DNA of 64,000 nucleotides from Cinclus cinclus (taxonomy: Eukaryota > Chordata > Aves > Passeriformes > Cinclidae). The notes beneath the pieces were generated by a model that did not search any database, was not told the origin of the DNA, and saw only the letters and a program-made list of their open reading frames with translations. The stretch is from the NCBI RefSeq assembly GCF_963662255.1, contig NC_085082.1, positions 744,001 through 808,000 of the forward strand, in the 5' to 3' direction. The position numbers were made by a program, and so were the translations under genes. This document shows positions 24,101 to 64,000 of the stretch, one piece after another (the stretch's first letter is position 1; each line of letters opens with the position of its first letter).

Positions 24101-27100
24101 GAAAAAAGGAAAAAAAAAAAAAAATGGGAATTTTGTGAATTTTTGGTGCCTTTTCCCCCCCTTCCTCTCCTTCTTTTTCCCTTGATTTCTTCCCCACCAT
24201 TCCCGAGTGTAAAAATCCATAAAAAATTCTCCCAGTGTGTCCCAAACCAAGCAGAATTCCCAAAAATCCCCTCCCCACCCCCCAAAAAAAAAAAAAAGTC
24301 ACAAAAGCACACAAATCCCCTCCCCCACCCCCCCCCAAAAAAAAAAAAAAGGAAAAAGAGGAAAAAAAAAAAAAAGGGGAAAATTCCAGGTGAAAACAAC
24401 AACAACAAAAAAGAAACAAAACAAAACAAAAAAAATAACAAGGAAAAAAAAAAACCCAAAAAATTCCAACCTGGAAAAGGAATTTCCACACACACAAAAA
24501 AAAAAAAAAAAATTAAAAAGAACAAAAAAAGTGGAAAAGTTGGTGAAAATCAGTGGGAAAAAAAAAAGTGAAAATGGTTGAAAAAAGCTGAAAACCAACA
24601 ATAAAAAAACAACAAAAAAAACCCCAACAAAAAAAACCCCCAAAAGAAACAAAAAATTCCAACCTGGAACAGGAATTTCCACACACAGAAAAAAAAAAAA
24701 AAATTTGAAAAAGTGGAAAAGTTGATGAAAATCAGTTTAAAAAAAAGTGAAAATGGTTAAAAAAATATAAAAAAAAAAAACAAAAAAAAACCCCAAAAGA
24801 AACAAAAAATTCCAACCTGGAACAGGAATTTCCACACACAAAAAAAATTAAAAAGAACAAAAAACGTGGAAAAGTTGGTGAAAATCAGTGAAAAAAAAAA
24901 AGTGAAAATGGTTGAAAAAAGGTAAAAACCAACAACAAAAAAACCACAAAAAACCCCAACAAAAAAACCAACAAAAAAAAACCCCCAAAAATTCCAACCT
25001 GGAAGGGGAATTTCCACACACACAAAAAATAAAATCAATTTAAAATAAAAAGTGGAAAAGTTGGTGAAAATCGGTGAGAAACAAAAAGTGGAAATGGTTA
25101 AAAAAGGTGAAAAGCAGCAACCAAAGGTGACAAACGCCTCCCTGCCCCATCCAGGTGTGCCCCAGGTGTGCCCCAGGTGTGTCCCGGGTGTGCTCCAGGT
25201 GTGCCCCAGGTGTGCCCCAGTTGTGCTCCAGGTGTGCCCCAGGTGTGCTCCAGGTGTGCCCCGGGTGTTCCCCAGGTGTGCCCCAGTTGTGCTCCAGGTG
25301 TGCTCCAGGTGTGCCCCGGGTGTTCCCCAGGTGTGCTCCAGGTGTGCCCCAGGTGTGCTCCCAGTGTACTCCCAGTGTGCCCCAGGTGTGCCCCAGGTGT
25401 GCTCCCGGTGTGCCCCAGGTGTGCTCCAGGTGTGCTCCCGGTGTGCCCCAGGTGTGCCCCAGGTGTGCTCCAGGTGTGCTCCCGGTGTGCTCCAGGTGTG
25501 CCCCGGGTGTTCCCCAGGTGTGCCCCGGGTGTACTCCAGGTGTGCCCCAGGTGTGCTCCCGGTGTGCCCCAGGTGTGCTCCAGGTGTGCCCCAGGTGTGC
25601 CCCAGTTGTGCTCCAGGTGTAGTCCAGGTGTGCCCCGGGTGTTCCCCAGGTGTGCTCCAGGTGTGCTCCAGGTGTGCCCCAGTTGTGCTCCCGGTGTGCC
25701 CCAGTTGTGCTCCCGGTGTGCCCCAGGTGTGCTCCAGGTGTGCCCCAGTTGTGCCCCAGGTATGCCCCAGTTGTGCCCCAGGTGTGCCCCAGGTGTGCTC
25801 CAGGTGTGCCCCAGTTGTGCCCCAGGTGTGCCCCAGGTGTGCTCCAGGTGTGCCCCAGGTGTGCTCCAGGTGTGCCCCAGGTGTGCTCCAGGTGTGCCCC
25901 AGGTGTGCTCCAGGTGTGCCCCAGTTGTGCCCCAGGTGTGCCCCAGGTGTGCCCCAGGTGTGCTCCAGTTGTGCTCCCGGTGTGCCCCAGTTGTGCTCCA
26001 GGTGTGCCCCAGTTGTGCTCCAGGTGTGCCCCAGGTGTGCCCCAGGTGTGCTCCAGGTGTGCTCCAGGTGTGAATTCTGCCCTTTCCAACCCCCAAAACA
26101 ATTCCCGTTTTCCCCTGGAAAAAAAATCCCCACAAAATTCCAAATTTTCCTCCCAAAAAACCCCCCAAATTCCCATTTTTTCCCCTAAAACCGCCACAAT
26201 TCCATTTTTAATCCCCAAAATTCCATTTTTAATCCCCACAATTTCATTTTTAATCCCCAAAATTCCATTTTTAATCCCCACAATTCCATTTTTAATCCCC
26301 ACAATTTCATTTTTAATCCCCAAAATTCCATTTTTAATCCCCACAATTTCATTTTTAATCCCCACAATTCCATTTTTAATCCCCACAATTTCATTTTTAA
26401 TCCCCAAAATTTCATTTTTAATCCCCACAATTCCATTTTTCATGTCCCAAAAATGATCTGAAATCCCAATAATTCCATTTTCAGTCTCCCAAAAGCGATC
26501 TAAAACCCCCCGAATTTCACTTTTAACCCCCATAATTTTATTTTTTAACAACACAATTCCATTTTTAATCCCCACAATTCCGTTTTGAATGTCCCAGGAA
26601 TGATCTAAAATCCCAATAATTTCACTTTCCCCCCCCAAATTCCATTTTTTTACCCCCACAATTCTATTTCTAACCCCTATAATTCCATTTTTAATCCCCA
26701 CAATTCCACTTTCAATGTCCCAGGAATGATCTGGAATCCCAATAATTCCATTTCTAACCCCAATAATTCCATTTCTCCCCCCAATAATTCCATTTTTCCC
26801 CCCAATAATTCCATTTCTAACCCCAATAATTCCATTTCTAACCCCTATAACTCCATTTTTCCCCCAATAATTCCATTTTTACCCCATATATTTCCATTTC
26901 TCCCCCCAATAATTCCATTTCTAACCCCAACAATTCCATTTTTCCCCCCAGGGAGGACGGAGAGCTGGAGGAAGGCTGATATAAAACCCCAATAATTCCA
27001 TTTCTAACCCCAATAACTCCATTTCTCCCCCCAATAACTCCATTTTTACCCCATATATTTCCATTTTTCACCCCAATAATTCCATTTTCACCCCAACAAT

Positions 27101-30100
27101 TCCATTTTTCCCCCCAGGGAGGACGGAGAGCTGGAGGAAGGCTGATATAAAACCCCAATAATTCCATTTCTAACCCCAATAATTCCATTTTTACCCCATA
27201 TATTTCCATTTCTAACCCCAATAATTCCATTTCTAACCCCAATAATTCCATTTTTCACCCCAATAATTCCATTTTCCCCCCAGGGAGGACGGAGAGCTGG
27301 AGGAAGGCTGATATAAAACCCCAATAATTCCATTTCTCCCCCCAATAACTCCATTTTTACCCCATATATTTCCATTTTTCACCCCAATAATTCCATTTCT
27401 AACCCCAACAATTCCATTTTTCCCCCCAGGGAGGACGGAGAGCTGGAGGAAGGCTGATATAAAACCCCAATAATTCCATTTCTAACCCCAATAATTCCAT
27501 TTTTCCCCCCAATAATTCCATTTTTCACCCCAATAATTCCATTTCTAACCCCAACAATTCCATTTCTAACCCCAATAATTCCATTTTCCCCCCAGGGAGG
27601 ACGGAGAGCTGGAGGAAGGCTGATATAAAACCCCAATAATTCCATTTCTAACCCCAATAATTCCATTTCTAACCCCAATAATTCCATTTTTCCCCCCAGG
27701 GAGGACGGAGAGCTGGAGGAAGGCTGATATAAAACCCCAATAATTCCATTTCTAACCCCAATAATTCCATTTCTAACCCCAATAATTCCATTTCTAACCC
27801 CTATAACTCCATTTCTCCCCCCAATAACTCCATTTTTACCCCATATATTTCCATTTTTCACCCCAATAATTCCATTTTCACCCCAATAATTCCATTTTTC
27901 CCCCAGGGAGGACGGAGAGCTGGAGGAAGGCTGATATAAAACCCCAATAATTCCATTTCTAACCCCAATAATTCCATTTCTAACCCCAATAATTCCATTT
28001 CTAACCCCTATAACTCCATTTCTCCCCCCAATAACTCCATTTTTACCCCATATATTTCCATTTTTCACCCCAATAATTCCATTTCTAACCCCAACAATTC
28101 CATTTTTCCCCCAGGGAGGACGGAGAGCTGGAGGAAGGCTGATATAAAACCCCAATAATTCCATTTCTAACCCCAACAATTCCATTTTTCACCCCAACAA
28201 TTCCATTTCTAACCCCAATAATTCCATTTTCCCCCCAGGGAGGACGGAGAGCTGGAGGAAGGCTGATATAAAACCCCAATAATTCCATTTCTAACCCCAA
28301 TAATTCCATTTCTAACCCCAATAATTCCATTTTCCCCCCAACAATTCCATTTCTAACCCCAATAATTCCATTTTTCCCCCAGGGAGGACGGAGAGCTGGA
28401 GGAAGGCGAGCTGGAGGACGACGGCGCCGATGAAATCCCGGACCCTTCTCATTCCCGCTGCCGTTCCCGGCGCTCCCGCTCGCGCCGCTCGCGATCCCGG
28501 TCTCGCTCCCAGTACTCCCAGTACTCCCAGTACTCCCAGTGCCGCTCCCAGTGCCCGGCCCGGCGCGAGCGTCACCGCAGCGGCTCCGAGGAGGACAAAG
28601 CTCACCGCAGGCTCAAGAGGAAACGTCGCAGGGAACGGGATCGGGATCGGGATCGGGACCGGGACCGGGACCGGGACAGGGACAGGGACAGGGACAGGAG
28701 GAGGGCCAAGAAAAAAAGGAAATCCAAGCACAAGGTGGGAATTCCCGATGGGTTTTTATAGCGGGCAAATCCCACGGGGGTTTGTTGGGGCTGGGGTTTT
28801 TTTGGGGTTTTTTTTGCTTTTTTTTTGGGTTTTTTTTTTTTTTTTTTGGGGTTGGTTTTTTTAAATGTCGTAAAAAAAATAATTGTCCTGAAATTCCCTT
28901 AGAGCTGCCCTCAAATCCCGTGAAAAATCCATTTATTTTTTTTAGAATTCTAATCCCAAAATCCCGTGAAAAATCCATTTATTTTTTAGAATTCTAATCC
29001 CAAAATCCCGTGAAAAATCCATTTATTTTTTAGAACCCTAATCCCAAAATCCCGTGAAAAATCCATTTATTTTTTAGAATTCTAATCCCAAAATCCCATG
29101 AAAAATCCATTTATTTTTTAGAACCCTAATCCCAAAATCCCGTGAAAAATCCATTTATTTTTTAGAATCCTAATCCCAAAATCCCGTGAAAAATCCATTT
29201 ATTTTTTTGGAATTCTAATCCCAAAATCCCGTGAAAAATCCATTTATTTTTTTGGAATTCTAATCCCAAAATCCCGTGAAAAATCCATTTATTTTTTAGA
29301 ATCCTAATCCCAAAATCCTGTGAAAACCCCACAAAAATTCCATTAAAAATGCCATAAAAATTCTATTAAAAAATTCCATAAAAGGTACCCTGAAATTCCC
29401 TTAGAGCTGCCCTCAAATCCCGTGAAAAATCCATTTATTTTTTTTAGAATTCTAATCCCAAAATCCCGTGAAAAATCCATTTATTTTTTAGAATTCTGAT
29501 CCCAAAAATCCCGTGAAAAATCCATTTATTTTTTAGAATCCTAATCCCAAAATCCCGTGAAAAATCCATTTATTTTTTTGGAATTCTAATCCCAAAATCC
29601 CGTGAAAAATCCATTTATTTTTTAGAATTCTAATCCCAAAATCCCGTGAAAAATCCATTTATTTTTTAGAATCCTAATCCCAAAATCCTGTGAAAACCCC
29701 ACAAAAATTCCATTAAAAATGCCATAAAAATTCTATTAAAAAATTCCATAAAAGGTACCCTGAAATTCCCTTAGAGCTGCCCTCAAATCCCGTGAAAAAT
29801 CCATTTATTTTTTTGGAATTCTAATCCCAAAATCCCGTGAAAAATCCATTTATTTTTTTGGAATTCTAATCCCAAAATCCCGTGAAAAATCCATTTATTT
29901 TTTAGAATCCTAATCCCAAAATCCCGTGAAAAATCCATTTATTTTTTTGGAATTCTAATCCCAAAATCCCGTGAAAAATCCATTTATTTTTTAGAATTCT
30001 AATCCCAAAATCCCATGAAAAATCCATTTATTTTTTAGAATCCTAATCCCAAAATCCTGTGAAAACCCCACAAAAATTCCATTAAAAATGCCATAAAAAT

Positions 30101-33100: not shown

Positions 33101-36100
33101 CCAGCGCTCCCAGTGCCATTCCCAGTGCTCCCAGTGCCATTCCCAGTTCTCCCAGTGCCCTCCCCAGCGCTCCCAGTGCCATTCCCAGTGCTCCCAGTGC
33201 CATTCCCAGTTCTCCCAGTGCCCTCCCCAGTGCTCCCAGTGCCCTCCCCAGCGCTCCCAGCACTTCCGGTGCCATCCTAACCCCTCCCTGTGCCTTCCCA
33301 GTGCTCCCAGTACTCCCAGTTACCCCGCAAGCCCCACCCCAAGGCCGACCCCAAACCTTTCGGGGGCTCCTTCGAGGATTTCGACCCCGAGGATTTCGGG
33401 CCCTTCGAGGCCGAAGAGGATGAGGAGGCTCCCAGGGACGGCTACGACGACTTCGCCAAGGAGCTCAACCAGTACCGGCGCTCCAAGGAGGGATCCCACC
33501 GTGCCAGAGGTACTGGGCAAACTGGGACAACTGGGACAGTCCCAAATTGGGGAAATCGCAAAAAAATCCCTAAAAAAAAATCCCAAAAACCGCATTAAAA
33601 ACTCTTAAAAAACACCAAAATAACCCCAAAAAATCAGTATTGGTGCTCCAAGGAGGGATCCCAGTATGCCAGAGGTACTGGGCAAACTGGGACAACTGGG
33701 ACAGTCCCAAAATGGGGGAAATCGCAAAAAAATCCCTAAAAAAATCCCAAAAAATGCATTAAATACTCTTAAAAAACACCAAAATAACCCCAAAAAATCA
33801 CTACTGGTGCTCCAAGGAGGGATCCCAGTATGCCAGAGGTACTGGGCAAACTGGGACAACTGGGACAGTCCCAAAATGGGGGAAATCGCAAAAAAATCCC
33901 TAAAAAAATCCCAAAAAATGCATTAAATACTCTTAAAAAACACCAAAATAACCCCAAAAAATCACTACTGGTGCTCCAAGGAGGGATCCCAGTATACCAG
34001 AGGTACTGGGCAAACTGGGACAACTGGGACAGTCCCAAAATGGGGGGAAATCGCAAAAAAATCCCTAAAAAAATCCCAAAAACCGCATTAAATACTCTTA
34101 AAAAACACCAAAATGACCCCAAAAAATCAGTATTGGTGCTCCAAGGAGGGATCCCAGTATGCCAGAGGTACTGGGCAAACTGGGACAACTGGGACAGTCC
34201 CAAAATGGGGGAAATCGCAAAAAAATCCCTAAAAAAATCCCAAAAACCGCATTAAATACTCTTAAAAAACACCAAAATAACCCCAAAAAATCACTACTGG
34301 TGCTCCAAGGAGGGATCCCACCGTGCCAGAGGTACTGGGCAAACTGGGACAACTGGGACAGTCCCAAAATGGGGGAAATCACGAAAAAATCCCTAAAAAA
34401 ATCCCAAAAAATGCATTAAAAACTCTTAAAAAACACCAAAATAACCCCAAAAAATCACTACTGGTGCTCCAAGGAGGGATCCCAGTATGCCAGAGGTACT
34501 GGGCAAACTGGGACAACTGGGACAGTCCCAAAATGGGGGGAAATCGCAAAAAAATCCCTAAAAAAAATCCCAAAAAATGCATTAAAAACTCTTAAAAAAA
34601 CCAAAATAACCCCAAAAAATCACTACTGGTGCTCCAAGGAGGGATCCCAGTATGCCAGAGGTACTGGGCAAACTGGGACAACTGGGACAGTCCCAAAATG
34701 GGGGAAATCACGAAAAAATCCCTAAAAAAATCCCAAAAAACACATTAAAAACTCTTAAAAAACACCAAAGTAACAAAAAAAAAAAAAACATTTTTCCCCA
34801 TTTCCCCGTTTTTTCCCCGTTTTTCCCGTTTTTTCCCCATTTTTTCCCCGTTTTTTCCCCGTTTCTCACCCCCTTTTCTCTCCCCTCATTCCCGGGGCCA
34901 TTCCCATTTTTTCCCCGTTTTTTCCCGTTTTTTTCCCCGTTTTTTCCCCGTTTCTCACCCCCTTTTCTCTCCCCTCAGGCCGGGGCTGTTCCCATTTCCC
35001 CATTTCCCCGTTTTTCCCCGTTTTTTTTCCCGTTTTTCCCCCGTTTTTTCCCCGTTTCTCACCCCCTTTTCTCTCCCCTCAGGTCGGGGCTGTTCCCATT
35101 TCCCCATTTCCCCGTTTTTTTCCCGTTTTTTCCCCGTTTTTTCCCCGTTTCTCACCCCCTTTTCTCTCCCCTCATTCCCGGGGCCGTTCCCATTTTTTCC
35201 CCGTTTTTTCCCGTTTTTTCCCGTTTTTTCCCCGTTTCTCACCCCCTTTTCTCTCCCCTCATTCCCAGGGCCATTCCCATTTTTTCCCCGTTTTTTCCCA
35301 TTTTCCCCCGTTTTTTCCCCGTTTCTCACCCCCTTTTCTCTCCCCTCAGGTCGGGGCTGTTCCCATTTCCCCATTTCCCCGTTTTTTCCCGTTTTTTCCC
35401 CGTTTTTTCCCCGTTTCTCACCCCCTTTTCTCTCCCCTCATTCCCGGGGCCGTTCCCATTTTTTCCCCGTTTTTTCCCGTTTTTCCCCGTTTTTTCCCCG
35501 TTTCTCACCCCCTTTTCTCTCCCCTCAGGCCGGGGCTGTTCCCATTTCCCCATTTCCCCATTTCCCCGTTTTTTCCCATTTTTCCCTGTTTTTTCCCCGT
35601 TTCTCACCCCCTTTTCTCTCCCCTCAGGCCGGGGCTGTTCCCATTTCCCCATTTCCCCATTTCCCCGTTTTTTCCCATTTTTTCCCGTTTTTTCCCCGTT
35701 TCTCACCCCGTTTTCTCTCCCCTCATTCCCGGGGCCGTTCCCATTTTTTCCCCGTTTTTTCCCGTTTTTTCCCCGTTTTTTCCCCGTTTCTCACCCCCTT
35801 TTCTCTCCCCTCAGGCCGGGGCTGTTCCCATTTCCCCATTTCCCCATTTCCCCGTTTTTTCCCATTTTTCCCCGTTTTTTCCCCGTTTCTCACCCCCTTT
35901 TCTCTCCCCTCAGGTCGGGGCCGTGGTGCCCGGGGGTTCCGGGGCCGGGGCCGGGGCCCTGCCCGGGGTCGGGGGCTGGGCCGGGGCCGGGGCCGAGCCC
36001 GCAGCGACCCCGAGGAGGAGGAGGAGGAGGAGGAGGAAGAGCCCTTCGAGGAGGAGATGGAGGTGAGGAGGTGGGAATTACACCGGGAATTCCCCAGGGA

Positions 36101-39100: not shown

Positions 39101-42100
39101 ATCCCACTTTTTATCCTTAAAATCCCAGGATTTTGGCTTTGAAATAGCCCAAACCTGCCTTTTTCACCCCAAAATTCCCGGATTTTTTCCTGGGATTTTT
39201 CCCAGATTTCCTCCCGATTTTTCCCGGCATTTTTTGTGCTCCGCACCCCTCACCTCCCCCACCCCCCAAATTCCCCATTTCCCACCCCAAAATTCCCAGA
39301 TTTTCCGGGATATTTCCCATTTTTTTCCTGTGATTTCTTTTCCCCATGGATTTCCCACTGATTTTGCCGTGATTTTTCCCTGTTTTTTCCCCTCAAAATT
39401 CCCAAATTTTTCCTGGGACTTTTCCCGAATTTCCCCCAGATTTTCCCCCCAAAATTCCCGATTTTTTTCCCCACATTTTTCCCGAATTTCCCCCAGATTT
39501 TCCCCCCAAAATTCCCGGATTTTCCCCAAAAATTCCCACATTTTTCCCATCTCCCCCCCAGAATTCCCCGATTTCTCCCAGATTTTTCCTGGGACTTTTC
39601 CCACGGATTTTTCACTGATTTTTTCGTGATTTTTTCATGGATTTTTCCACATTTTTTTTTTCCCCAGACTTTTCCCCCCCTGAAATTCCCGGATTTTTCC
39701 TGGGACTTTTCCCAGTTTTTTCCTGGGATTTTTTTCATCGATTTTTCCTGCTGTTCTTCCCACACTTCCCTCCAAAATTCCCGAATTTTTTCATGGATTT
39801 CTCCCCGCGTTTTGTCCCAGACCTTCCCCCCCCCCCCCCCCCCCCCACCCAAAATTCCCGGATTTCCCCCCAGAATTCCTCGGATTTTTCCCGGGATTTT
39901 TCTGCTCGGCGCCCCCCACCCTCCCCCATCCCTCCCCCCCCCAGAATTCCCAGATTTTCCGGGATATTTCCCGGATTTTTCCCGCAGGACGGGGGCGGAT
40001 ACCGGCGGGGCGAGCACGACAAATCTCACCTGCCCTCGGACAAGAAGGGCAAGGTGATCTGCAAGTACTTCGTGGAGGGCAGGTGCACCTGGGTAAGGAA
40101 TTCCCAAGGGAAAATTCCCAAAATTCCAGCACGGGATGGCTGGGGGGGGGCGGCTGGGTCCCACCTGGTCACACCTGGATCATCCAAAATCCACCTGGTC
40201 ACACCTGGATTACACAAATCCCACCTGGATCTCACCTGTCCCAACCAAATCACACCTGGTCACACCTGGATCATCCAAATCCCACCTGGATCTCACCTGT
40301 CCCACCCAAATCCCACCTGGTCACACCTGGTCACACCTGGATTACCGAAATCCCACCTGGATCCCACCTGGTCACACCTGGATCATCCAAATCCCACCTG
40401 GATCTCACCTGTCCCAACCAAATCCCACCTGGTCACACCTGGTCACATCTGGATCATCCAAAAATCCACCTGGTCACACCTGGATTACACAAATCCCACC
40501 TGGATCTCACCTGTCCCACCCAAATCCCACCTGGTCACACCTGGTCACACCTGGATATCCAAATCCCACCCGGATCACACCTGGATCATTCAAATCCCAC
40601 CTGGATCTCACCTGTCCCACCCAAATCCCACCTGGATCCCACCTGGTCACAACTATATCATCCAAATCCCACCTGGTCACACCTGGATCATCCAAATCCC
40701 ACCCGGATCACACCTGGTCACACTTGGATCTCACCTGGATCTCACCTGTCCCACCCGAATCCCACCTTTTCCGCCCCTTTCCAACCTGTCCTGTCTCACC
40801 TGTCTAACCTCACCTGTCCTGTCTCACCTGCACAGGGTGACCACTGCAACTTCAGCCACGACATCGAGCTGCCCAAGAAGCGGGAGCTGTGCAAGTTCTA
40901 CATCACCGGGTACTGCGCCCGCGCCGAGAGCTGTCCCTACATGCACGATATCCTGTCCTGCACCTGTCCTACACCTGTCCTACACCTGTCCTACACCTGT
41001 CTGGGGTTAAACCTGTCCTAGACCCGGGTTAAACCCGGCCTGAACGTGTCCATGAGCTGTGCCAGTTCTACATCACCGGGTACTGCGCCCGCGCCGAGAG
41101 CTGTCCCTACATGCACGATATCCTGTCCTACACCTGTCCTACACCTGTCCTACACCTGTCTGGGGTTAAACCTGTCCTAGACCCGGGTTAAACCCGGCCT
41201 GAACGTGTCCATGAGCTGTGCCAGTTCTACATCACCGGGTACTGCGCCCGCGCCGAGAGCTGTCCCTACATGCACGATATCCTGTCCTGCACCTGTCCTG
41301 CACCTGTCCTACACCTGTCCTACACCTGTCTGGGGTTAAACCTGTCCTAGACCCGGGTTAAACCCGGCCTGAACGTGTCCATGAGCTGTGCCAGTTCTAC
41401 ATCACCGGGTACTGCGCCCGCGCCGAGAGCTGTCCCTACATGCACGATATCCTGTCCTGCACCTGTCCTACACCTGTCCTACACCTGTCCTACACCTGTC
41501 TGGGGTTAAACCTGTCCTAGACCCGGGTTAAACCCGGCCTGAACGTGTCCATGAGCTGTGCCAGTTCTACATCACCGGGTACTGCGCCCGCGCCGAGAGC
41601 TGTCCCTACATGCACGATATCCTGTCCTGCACCTGTCCTACACCTGTCCTACACCTGTCCTACACCTGTCTGGGGTTAAACCTGTCCTAGACCCGGGTTA
41701 AACCCGGCCTGAACGTGTCCATGAGCTGTGCCAGTTCTACATCACCGGGTACTGCGCCCGCGCCGAGAGCTGTCCCTACATGCACGATATCCTGTCCTGC
41801 ACCTGTCCTACACCTGTCCTACACCTGTCCTACACCTGTCCTACACCTGTCCTACACCTGTCTGGGGTTAAACCTGTCCTAAACCTGGGTTACACCTGTC
41901 CTAAACCTGTCCTAGACCTGTTCTAGACCTGGGTTAGACCTGGGTCAGACCTGGGATACACCTGTCCTAAACCTGGGTTACACCTGGACAGAACCCCGTT
42001 TTTCCCAGACTTTTCAGGGATTTTTTCCCCAGCTTTTTTCCAGTTCATACCCAGGTTTCTCCCCGTGTCATTCCTGGTTTTTCCCGTGTCATTCCCGATT

Positions 42101-45100
42101 TTTCCCGTGTCATTCCCGGTTTTTTCCCGTGTTATTCCCGGTTTTTCTCCCCGTGTCATTCCCGGTTTTTCCCGTGTCATTCCCGGTTTTTTCCCGTGTC
42201 ATTCCCGGTTTTTCCCGTGTCATTCCCGGTTTTTCTCCCCGTGTCATTCCCGGTTTTTCCCGTGTCATTCCCGGTTTTTCCCCTGTCATTCCCGTTTCTT
42301 TTTCCCGTTTTCCTTGACGTTCCCACGGGATTTCCCGTGCAAGCTGTTCCACACCACCGGGCTCTGCATCAACGGCGACGACTGCATGTTCTCACACGCG
42401 CCGCTCACCGACGAGACACGGGAGCTGCTGGACAAGGTAACGCACACCTGGGCACACCTGGGTACACCTGGGCACAGGTACAGCACACCTGGGTACAGGT
42501 ACAGCACACCTGGGCACAGTTCTCACATGTTCTCACACGCGCCGCTCACCGACGAGACACGGGAGCTGCTGGACAAGGTAACGCACACCTGGGCACACCT
42601 GGGTACACCTGGGCACAGGTACAGCACACCTGGGTACAGGTACAGCACATCTGGGCACAGTACTCACATGTTCTCACACGCGCCGCTCACCGACGAGACA
42701 CGGGAGCTGCTGGACAAGGTAACGCACACCTGGGCACACCTGGGTACACCTGGGCACTGGTACAGCACACCTGGGTACAGGTACAGCACACCTGGGCACA
42801 GTTCTCACATGTTCTCACACGCGCCGCTCACCGACGAGACACGGGAGCTGCTGGACAAGGTAACGCACACCTGGGCACACCTGGGTACACCTGGGCACAG
42901 GTACAGCACACCTGGGTACAGGTACAGCACACCTGGGCACAGTACTCACATGTTCTCACACGCGCCGCTCACCGACGAGACACGGGAGCTGCTGGACAAG
43001 GTAACGCACACCTGGGCACACCTGGGTACACCTGGGCACAGGTACAGCACACCTGGGTACAGGTACAGCACACCTGGGCACAGTTCTCACATGTTCTCAC
43101 ACGCGCCGCTCACCGACGAGACACGGGAGCTGCTGGACAAGGTAACGCACACCTGGGCACACCTGGGCACACCTGGGCACTGGTACAGCACACCTGGGTA
43201 CAGGTACAGCACACCTGGGCACAGTTCTCACATGTTCTCACACGCGCCGCTCACCGACGAGACACGGGAGCTGCTGGACAAGGTAACGCACACCTGGGCA
43301 CACCTGGGCACACCTGGGCACAGGTACAGCACACCTGGGTACAGGTACAGCACACCTGGGTACAGTTCTCACATGTTCTCACACGCGCCGCTCACCGACG
43401 AGACACGGGAGCTGCTGGACAAGGTAACGCACACCTGGGCACACCTGGGTACACCTGGGCACAGGTACAGCACACCTGGGTACAGGTACAGCACACCTGG
43501 GTACAGGTACAGCACACCTGGGCACAGTTCTCACATGTTCTCACACGCGCCGCTCACCGACGAGACACGGGAGCTGCTGGACAAGGTAACGCACACCTGG
43601 GCACACCTGGGTACACCTGGGCACAGGTACAGCACACCTGGGTACAGGTACAGCACACCTGGGTACAGGTACAGCACACCTGGGCACAGTTCTCACATGT
43701 TCTCACACGCGCCGCTCACCGACGAGACACGGGAGCTGCTGGACAAGGTAACGCACACCTGGGCACACCTGGGTACACCTGGGCACAGGTACAGCACACC
43801 TGGGTACAGGTACAGCACACCTGGGCACAGTTCTCACATGTTCTCACACGCGCCGCTCACCGACGAGACACGGGAGCTGCTGGACAAGGTAACGCACACC
43901 TGGGCACACCTGGGTACACCTGGGCACAGGTACAGCACACCTGGGTACAGGTACAGCACACCTGGGCACAGTTCTCACATGTTCTCACACGCGCCGCTCA
44001 CCGACGAGACACGGGAGCTGCTGGACAAGGTAACGCACACCTGGGCACACCTGGGTACACCTGGGCACAGGTACAGCACACCTGGGTACAGGTACAGCAC
44101 ACCTGGGCACAGTACTCACATGTTCTCACACGCGCCGCTCACCGACGAGACACGGGAGCTGCTGGACAAGGTAACGCACACCTGGGCACACCTGGGTACA
44201 CCTGGGCACAGGTACAGCACACCTGGGTACAGGTACAGCACACCTGGGTACAGGTACAGCACACCTGGGCACAGTTCTCACATGTTCTCACACGCGCCGC
44301 TCACCGACGAGACACGGGAGCTGCTGGACAAGGTAACGCACACCTGGGCACACCTGGGTACACCTGGGCACAGGTACAGCACACCTGGGTACAGGTACAG
44401 CACACCTGGGTACAGGTACAGCACACCTGGGCACAGTTCTCACATGTTCTCACACGCGCCGCTCACCGACGAGACACGGGAGCTGCTGGACAAGGTAACG
44501 CACACCTGGGCACACCTGGGTACACCTGGGCACAGGTACAGCACACCTGGGTACAGGTACAGCACACCTGGGCACAGTTCTCACATGTTCTCACACGCGC
44601 CGCTCACCGACGAGACACGGGAGCTGCTGGACAAGGTAACGCACACCTGGGCACACCTGGGTACACCTGGGCACAGGTACAGCACACCTGGGTACAGGTA
44701 CAGCACACCTGGGCACAGTTCTCACATGTTCTCACACGCGCCGCTCACCGACGAGACACGGGAGCTGCTGGACAAGGTAACGCACACCTGGGCACACCTG
44801 GGTACACCTGGGCACAGGTACAGCACACCTGGGTACAGGTACAGCACATCTGGGCACAGTACTCACATGTTCTCACACGCGCCGCTCACCGACGAGACAC
44901 GGGAGCTGCTGGACAAGGTAACGCACACCTGGGCACACCTGGGTACACCTGGGCACTGGTACAGCACACCTGGGTACAGGTACAGCACACCTGGGCACAG
45001 TTCTCACATGTTCTCACACGCGCCGCTCACCGACGAGACACGGGAGCTGCTGGACAAGGTAACGCACACCTGGGCACACCTGGGTACACCTGGGCACAGG

Positions 45101-48100
45101 TACAGCACACCTGGGTACAGGTACAGCACACCTGGGCACAGTACTCACATGTTCTCACACGCGCCGCTCACCGACGAGACACGGGAGCTGCTGGACAAGG
45201 TAACGCACACCTGGGCACACCTGGGTACACCTGGGCACAGGTACAGCACACCTGGGTACAGGTACAGCACACCTGGGCACAGTTCTCACATGTTCTCACA
45301 CGCGCCGCTCACCGACGAGACACGGGAGCTGCTGGACAAGGTAACGCACACCTGGGCACACCTGGGCACACCTGGGCACTGGTACAGCACACCTGGGTAC
45401 AGGTACAGCACACCTGGGCACAGTTCTCACATGTTCTCACACGCGCCGCTCACCGACGAGACACGGGAGCTGCTGGACAAGGTAACGCACACCTGGGCAC
45501 ACCTGGGCACACCTGGGCACAGGTACAGCACACCTGGGTACAGGTACAGCACACCTGGGTACAGTTCTCACATGTTCTCACACGCGCCGCTCACCGACGA
45601 GACACGGGAGCTGCTGGACAAGGTAACGCACACCTGGGCACACCTGGGTACACCTGGGCACAGGTACAGCACACCTGGGTACAGGTACAGCACACCTGGG
45701 TACAGGTACAGCACACCTGGGCACAGTTCTCACATGTTCTCACACGCGCCGCTCACCGACGAGACACGGGAGCTGCTGGACAAGGTAACGCACACCTGGG
45801 CACACCTGGGTACACCTGGGCACAGGTACAGCACACCTGGGTACAGGTACAGCACACCTGGGTACAGGTACAGCACACCTGGGCACAGTTCTCACATGTT
45901 CTCACACGCGCCGCTCACCGACGAGACACGGGAGCTGCTGGACAAGGTAACGCACACCTGGGCACACCTGGGTACACCTGGGCACAGGTACAGCACACCT
46001 GGGTACAGGTACAGCACACCTGGGCACAGTTCTCACATGTTCTCACACGCGCCGCTCACCGACGAGACACGGGAGCTGCTGGACAAGGTAACGCACACCT
46101 GGGCACACCTGGGTACACCTGGGCACAGGTACAGCACACCTGGGTACAGGTACAGCACACCTGGGCACAGTTCTCACATGTTCTCACACGCGCCGCTCAC
46201 CGACGAGACACGGGAGCTGCTGGACAAGGTAACGCACACCTGGGCACACCTGGGTACACCTGGGCACAGGTACAGCACACCTGGGTACAGGTACAGCACA
46301 CCTGGGCACAGTACTCACATGTTCTCACACGCGCCGCTCACCGACGAGACACGGGAGCTGCTGGACAAGGTAACGCACACCTGGGCACACCTGGGTACAC
46401 CTGGGCACAGGTACAGCACACCTGGGTACAGGTACAGCACACCTGGGTACAGGTACAGCACACCTGGGCACAGTTCTCACATGTTCTCACACGCGCCGCT
46501 CACCGACGAGACACGGGAGCTGCTGGACAAGGTAACGCACACCTGGGCACACCTGGGTACACCTGGGCACAGGTACAGCACACCTGGGTACAGGTACAGC
46601 ACACCTGGGTACAGGTACAGCACACCTGGGCACAGTTCTCACATGTTCTCACACGCGCCGCTCACCGACGAGACACGGGAGCTGCTGGACAAGGTAACGC
46701 ACACCTGGGCACACCTGGGTACACCTGGGCACAGGTACAGCACACCTGGGTACAGGTACAGCACACCTGGGCACAGTTCTCACATGTTCTCACACGCGCC
46801 GCTCACCGACGAGACACGGGAGCTGCTGGACAAGGTAACGCACACCTGGGCACACCTGGGTACACCTGGGCACAGGTACAGCACACCTGGGTACAGGTAC
46901 AGCACACCTGGGCACAGTTCTCACATGTTCTCACACGCGCCGCTCACCGACGAGACACGGGAGCTGCTGGACAAGGTAACGCACACCTGGGTACACCTGG
47001 GCACAGGTACAGCACACCTGGGTACAGGTACAGCACACCTGGGTACACCTGGGCACAGGTACAGCACACCTGGGTACAGGTACAGCACACCTGGGCACAG
47101 TTCTCACATGTTCTCACACGCGCCGCTCACCGACGAGACACGGGAGCTGCTGGACAAGGTAACGCACACCTGGGTACACCTGGGCACAGGTACAGCACAC
47201 CTGGGCACACCTGGGCACAGGTACAGCACACTTGGTACAGGCACAGCACACCTGGCACAACTGAGGTCATTGTCTCCCCCAGTTTAACCCAGTTTACCCC
47301 AGTTTAATCCCATTGTATCCCCTCCCAGTCCCTCCCAGTCCCTCCCAGCCCGTCCCAGTCCGTCCCGGTCCCTCCCAGTCCCTCCCAGTCCCTCCCAGTC
47401 CGTCCCGGTCCCTCCCAGTCCGTCCCAGTCCGTCCCAGTCCGTCCCAGTCCCTCCCAGTCCGTCCCAGTCTGTCCCAGTCCATCCCAGTCCCTCCCAGTC
47501 CCTCCCAGTCCCTCCCAGTCCGTCCCAGTCCGTCCCAGTGTGCCCATTTCCCATTGCAGATGCTGCTGGAGGACGCCGAGGCGGGCAGGACCCCCAGTTT
47601 ATCCCAGTTTAACCCAGTTTACCCCAGTTTAATCCCATTGTATCCCCTCCCAGTCCCTCCCGGTCCCTCCCAGTCCGTCCCAGTCCCTCCCAGTCCCTCC
47701 CGGTCCCTCCCGGTCCCTCCCAGTCCGTCCCAGTCCCTCCCAGTCCGTCCCAGTCCGTCCCAGTGTGCCCATTTCCCGTTGCAGATGCTGCTGGAGGACG
47801 CCGAGGCGGGCGCCGAGGACCAGAAGGAGGTGGAGGAGCTCAAGAAGCAGGGCATCAACCCCCTCCCCAAACCCCCGCCAGGTGTGGGGCTCCTCCCCAC
47901 CCCCCCCCCGCCCCCCCGCCCCCTGCCCCTCCCCCCCTCCCCGCTCCCTGCCCCTCCCCCCGCCCGCCCCTCCCCTCCCCCCTCCCTCCATGGATCCCCT
48001 GGAGCCCCCCCCGGATCCCTTCAAGAAAATTCCGTCGCTCTTCGAGATCGTCGTGAGACCCACGGGGCAGCTGGCCGAGAAACTGGGGGTCAGGTGAGCG

Positions 48101-63881: not shown

Positions 63882-64000
63882 CGATCCCGGTTCGGGTTCG
63901 GGTCCCGGTTCGGGTTCGGGTCCCGGTTCGGGTCCCGGTTCGGGTTCGGGTTCGGGTTCGGGTTCGGGTTCGGGTTCGGGTCCCGGTTCGGGTTCGGGTC
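63882..64000. repeat. (GGTTCG)n hexamer array, truncated by window end
   Basis: GGGTTCGGGTTCGGGTCCCG words repeat to the last base. The hexamer TTCGGG differs from the vertebrate telomere unit TTAGGG at one base. Confidence 0.9.

Follow-up and report, generated by a model that had tools for sequence, protein, structure and literature searches.

The window analysed here, a 64,000-nucleotide stretch of Cinclus cinclus DNA, contains ZC3H4 on the plus strand, extending to about 53.8 kb of the window, and SAE1 on the minus strand, both located with human query sequences. It belongs to a contig of 1.135 Mb on which the neighbours of ZC3H4 are SYMPK, SAE1, CKM and RYR1, and local direct repeats make up 72% of the surrounding 264 kb. 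RYR1 lies on the minus strand at contig positions 859875–923406 and was mapped as 76 exon blocks with 74% identity to the human protein. When joined, the zinc-finger exons of ZC3H4 match the KIAA1064 structure (PDB 2cqe) over 88 residues with an E value of 2.9e-52, as well as the Pfam KIAA1064-like zinc finger; KIAA1064 is ZC3H4. These matches bear out the gene identity given in the preliminary description. The exon carrying zinc finger 3, which that description numbered exon 10, is the source of a long tandem array in the following intron. The features are collected in Table 1. ARAGORN additionally reported a tRNA-Pro (cgg) of 93 bases at 63885–63977 of the window, which is possibly spurious.

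Table 1. Features of ZC3H4 and its repeated exon edges (window positions; a slash marks an exon border)
Feature	Positions	Strand	Evidence
Exon block H (human residues ~407–445), ending in a putative U12-type AT donor, ATGCACG/ATATCCTG	40836..40947	+	Protein mapping, splice signals
Block-H donor (40948) and five stuttered copies, donors ATATCCTG at 41118, 41277, 41447, 41617 and 41787	40948..41800	+	Edge screen, splice signals
Branch motif TTCCTTGAC of putative U12 type, with the AC 3' splice site	42310..42326	+	Motif search
Exon block I, 110 bases, carrying zinc finger 3; the array derives from it; donor 1 directly after 42436	42327..42436	+	Core count, protein mapping, Pfam, PDB match
Array with 33 copies of the final 51 exon bases and GTAACG; 32 units of 141/162/183 bases	42386..47164	+	Exact core count
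First in-frame stop (TAA) past the last donor	47285..47287	+	Frame reading
Single upstream copy of the block-J acceptor edge, 225 bases before the real exon, in frame and open	47560..47784	+	Edge screen
Exon block J, joined by the array donors if used	47785..48093	+	Protein mapping
Nine stuttered acceptor copies upstream of block B; 2/9 in frame, 0 in frame and open	26943..28382	+	Edge screen
Seven stuttered donor copies after block C, steps 164/165; 2/7 in frame, 0 in frame and open	33508..34668	+	Edge screen

The core of the array, 57 bases long, was counted 33 times in the window with no mismatch on the plus strand and is absent from the window's minus strand. The copies, among which the exon itself is counted, succeed one another where the intron begins, and the donor AAG/GTAACG is intact in all 33. 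The steps between them measure 141 bases in 23 cases, 162 in eight and 183 in one, all of them multiples of three; the longer units differ by an additional 21 or 42 bases within the intron-derived part, and the reading frame is open from 42329 to the TAA at 47285. In copy number, exon edge, donor, unit lengths and open frame, this exact count agrees with what the preliminary description had claimed. A 30-base piece of the core has 33 exact matches in the 1.17-Gb assembly (277 contigs), all in the array, with no exact match elsewhere in the assembly and none when the pattern is read backwards. In the read-through translation, the KIAA1064-like finger of Pfam is found in 33 stretches and three general CCCH families in one stretch each; matches to PI3K_p85B, SCIN, 2-Hacid_dh_C, zf-CCHC_2 and NHase_alpha, for which no stretch passed alone, were taken as repeat artefacts.

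The repetition itself is clearly not random. The 32 units of the array fall into eight sequence types, which follow one another in the order (ABCDAEFGGAADGGA) twice and then AH. The second 15-unit block is a copy of the first: two overlapping parts (42386–44792 and 44585–46991), offset by 2199, are exactly identical over 2407 bases, either because the block was duplicated very recently or through an effect of the assembly. With eight unit types and an exact block duplication, the copies fall well short of 33 independent observations, and a modest number of events, not 33, built the array. The caveat of the preliminary description that homogenisation alone could explain the frame is supported. 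Among the units, 5 of the 90 intron-derived bases and 0 of the 51 exon-derived bases are variable sites. This distribution speaks against the exon-stuttering reading favoured below; with a probability of about 0.11 for the difference, purifying selection on the exon-derived part was rejected.

Local expansion of exon edges together with their splice sites has been described as exon stuttering on the dot chromosomes of chicken (Hron et al., 2026; PMC12954441). In the sections of that paper covered here, it affects 115 genes and 236 introns with 1–44 copies (median 4), the arrays vary strongly in length between chickens, the source lies at most one base from the exon border in more than 90% of cases, the introns are filled with repeats, and potential alternatively spliced transcripts are created. 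Like these cases, the ZC3H4 array repeats part of an exon edge in tandem within the neighbouring intron. The copied part runs right up to the exon border and includes the splice site, and the 33 copies are high within the chicken range given there; the array looks like a large, clean case of this recently described process. The terms 'sequence stuttering' and 'exon stuttering' were confined to this single source in the literature searched, its main text contains neither 'ZC3H4' nor 'in-frame', and its sections covered here hold no analysis of reading frame or openness. Among the matches listed in a search with most subscription papers outside its scope, there was no prior report of the ZC3H4 array. 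Intronic minisatellites (VNTRs), as generally known, share with it the tandem units, the internal 21-base sub-repeat and the block duplication, but the ZC3H4 unit takes in coding bases and a donor that is intact. Another familiar system, that of competing tandem 5' splice sites, likewise offers several possible donors at one exon, whereas ZC3H4 has 33 identical putative donors at steps of 141–183 bases that come from repeat expansion.

Exon edges were surveyed in 264 kb of the contig, covering 116 exon blocks of five genes (SYMPK 15, CKM 5, SAE1 8, RYR1 76 and ZC3H4 12). The blocks were obtained by tblastn with human proteins, using hits of at least 24 bits and more than 40% identity that were then chained, and cover 716 of 1001 residues of SYMPK (a shortened sequence), 253 of 381 of CKM, 317 of 346 of SAE1 and 4111 of 5038 of RYR1. 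For ZC3H4 the 12 blocks were refined by eye; exon 1 and the final exon are not among them, and some of their 3' ends lie 1–2 bases short of GT. The exon borders of the other genes are approximate. The thresholds of the published screen (42.1 bits and 20 bases; PMC12954441) were used, and where hits overlapped, the best one was retained. Applied to the array, these thresholds are reached by 32 blastn-short hits in the proximal intron, with a bit score of 123 among the matches listed (8 of the 32). The whole survey gave 27 stuttered edges, of which 13 concern donors and 14 acceptors, distributed over SYMPK (3), CKM (1), SAE1 (2), RYR1 (13) and ZC3H4 (8).

The nearest copy is in frame at 11 of these 27 edges (P = 0.42 against one third), or at 10 with the step of block B taken as -145, and 12 edges have a first unit that the coding frame reads without a stop. 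Of the 92 copies that belong to the 26 other arrays, 33 keep the frame (P = 0.66 against one third; 32 of 92 in the other register), and 6 are both in frame and open. General tandem arrays with a period of at least 40 are in frame in 76 of 224 cases. Some of the steps depend on the method, namely those of block B (-145 or -144), block F (-207 or -216) and block L (193 or 194), and block K has either three weak copies or two. Selection on the frame was rejected, as it is unseen over the 27 edges and the in-frame share lies at the level of one third. The 32 in-frame steps of the ZC3H4 array, taken alone, are not independent evidence for such selection.

In all eight unit types and all three frames, the one stop triplet is the TAA inside GTAACG. 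The preliminary description had called the stop-free spacers striking, but the shuffled spacer of one 141-base unit type is open in 64% of cases, and 66% of random 90-base windows of the 264 kb are open. Since shuffled spacers are also open at this rate, the openness is compositional, and it was ruled out as a functional signal. Multiplying the factors for the founder step (one third), openness (0.64) and the sub-repeat (one third) leads to a rough estimate of 0.07 per array, or about 1.9 among 27 arrays, with later frame-breaking changes ignored. The frame coherence of the array is approximately what chance gives, and a function deduced from the frame is not supported. Against this reading, the array studied here is the sole one fully in frame (32/32) among the 18 multi-copy arrays, and also the largest. 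This may be a coincidence (about 1 in 18 by our own estimate), or it may indicate that arrays neutral to the frame are able to grow. An array of splice sites that looks purposeful and preserves the frame becomes unremarkable when comparable ones are counted.

We therefore favour, with a probability of about 0.86, the reading that the array is exon stuttering of the kind found on bird dot microchromosomes and that donor 1 is mainly used; the dot-chromosome location, the expansion mechanism and the use of donor 1 are what we infer here. The array would have begun with a local duplication of the last 51 exon bases, the donor and about 84 further intron bases. This unit would have been multiplied by slippage or unequal exchange, with gene conversion perhaps keeping the copies alike, and the 15-unit block may have been duplicated very recently. 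If the founder unit was by luck a multiple of three and open, copying would have passed both properties on to all units. Exon definition would make donor 1 the main site, giving an exon of 110 bases, and most likely the other 32 donors are removed with the intron; the use of later donors is possible but unlikely. In experiments with duplicated donors, the intron-proximal site can reportedly be favoured. On an approximate matrix all 33 donors score 7.4, compared with 3.7–12.3 for nine other ZC3H4 donors and 4.8 for 72 CAG/GTACAG sites in the interval between blocks I and J. A simple pyrimidine-tract criterion places all acceptor-like AGs beyond the array, from 47282 on, and none within it; the units are therefore unlikely to be separate exons, and this possibility was rejected. 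The array provides a natural test of splicing choice among 33 identical donors in which every choice stays in frame.

If later donors were instead used at a meaningful rate, each would add modules of 47–61 residues after zinc finger 3, and donor 33 would add 1574 residues in all. Such a length-variable protein agrees with all 32 steps being in frame and open and with the 33 identical donors being, on the approximate matrix, the top-scoring GT sites between exons I and J. The module, however, is derived from the intron in 90 of its 141 bases, in-frame status is at the chance level over the 27 arrays, and of the seven other stuttered edges of ZC3H4 five break the frame, the remaining two being single in-frame copies. 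The proposal that frame-neutral arrays grow larger found no support either, since arrays that contain usable copies do not exceed the others in size (7 versus 20 arrays, one-sided Mann–Whitney P = 0.88, with copy numbers entered by hand), even though the in-frame array is the largest of all. A protein of variable length is accordingly quite improbable. The preliminary description had taken frame and openness as possible signs of a protein tuner or a splice-site buffer, a suggestion that the 11 of 27 edges in frame and the frame-breaking edges of the same gene do not sustain.

The 33 donors might alternatively act as decoys that hold U1 snRNP and, while not serving as exon ends themselves, change how the ZC3H4 transcript is elongated, terminated or spliced, and the 72 weaker CAG/GTACAG sites could add to such an effect. 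This is very unlikely, as donors are not favoured among the stuttered edges (14 of 27 are acceptor edges), the array lies about 14 kb past the first mapped exon block (28383), and U1 inhibition stabilises some PROMPTs but generally has no further effect in the parts of the study covered (PMC8137146). The perfect identity of 2407 bases between two blocks also raises the question of whether the assembler multiplied the length of the array or the exact 2.2-kb block. Stuttering at 27 edges of five genes with different units, together with the verification of chicken PHF8 repeats in raw reads in the covered sections of PMC12954441, makes this explanation highly improbable, and it would cast doubt on the copy number only and not on the array. 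The least probable of the readings is a self-made rheostat in which the array, with 33 tandem donors of which at most one is usable per transcript, sets by its length how strongly the ZC3H4 protein restricts its own transcript; the parts covered of two studies describe ZC3H4 as restricting transcription and propose its action where splicing is spurious or weak (PMC8137146, PMC9911701), and stray use of donors that are all in frame and open would be tolerated, so that this array could grow where frame-breaking ones cannot.

The intron adjoining the array exon, at 40948–42326, starts with ATATCCTG after ATGCACG and ends in TTCCTTGACGTTCCCAC/GG. Its donor, branch and acceptor signals, compared with the U12-type consensus, identify it as a predicted AT–AC intron of the U12 type. 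The motif TTCCTTRAC has a single occurrence on both strands of the 264 kb, at the branch site listed in Table 1, and ATATCCT has 28 occurrences in the 264 kb. The AT–AC donor is present six times, as the true site and five stuttered copies of which most are out of frame, together with one branch motif and one AC acceptor, which suggests that stuttering also reaches introns of the minor spliceosome. A literature search for ZC3H4 with U12-type, with most subscription papers outside its scope, found nothing.

The copies of the block-H donor follow at steps of 170, 159, 170, 170 and 170 bases, with one of the five in frame and none both in frame and open. Among the other edges of ZC3H4, the block-L donor has two copies at steps of 193, neither of them in frame (one in one of two registers), the block-K donor has two copies, one of them in frame and open, and block F has a single copy that is in frame and open. 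Within block J the frame shifts between its start (MLLEDAEAG...) and its end, at 47880–48000 in long C runs; the cause may be a homopolymer error, a genuine frameshift or a small intron. If the upstream copy of the block-J acceptor edge were used, it would add 75 residues.
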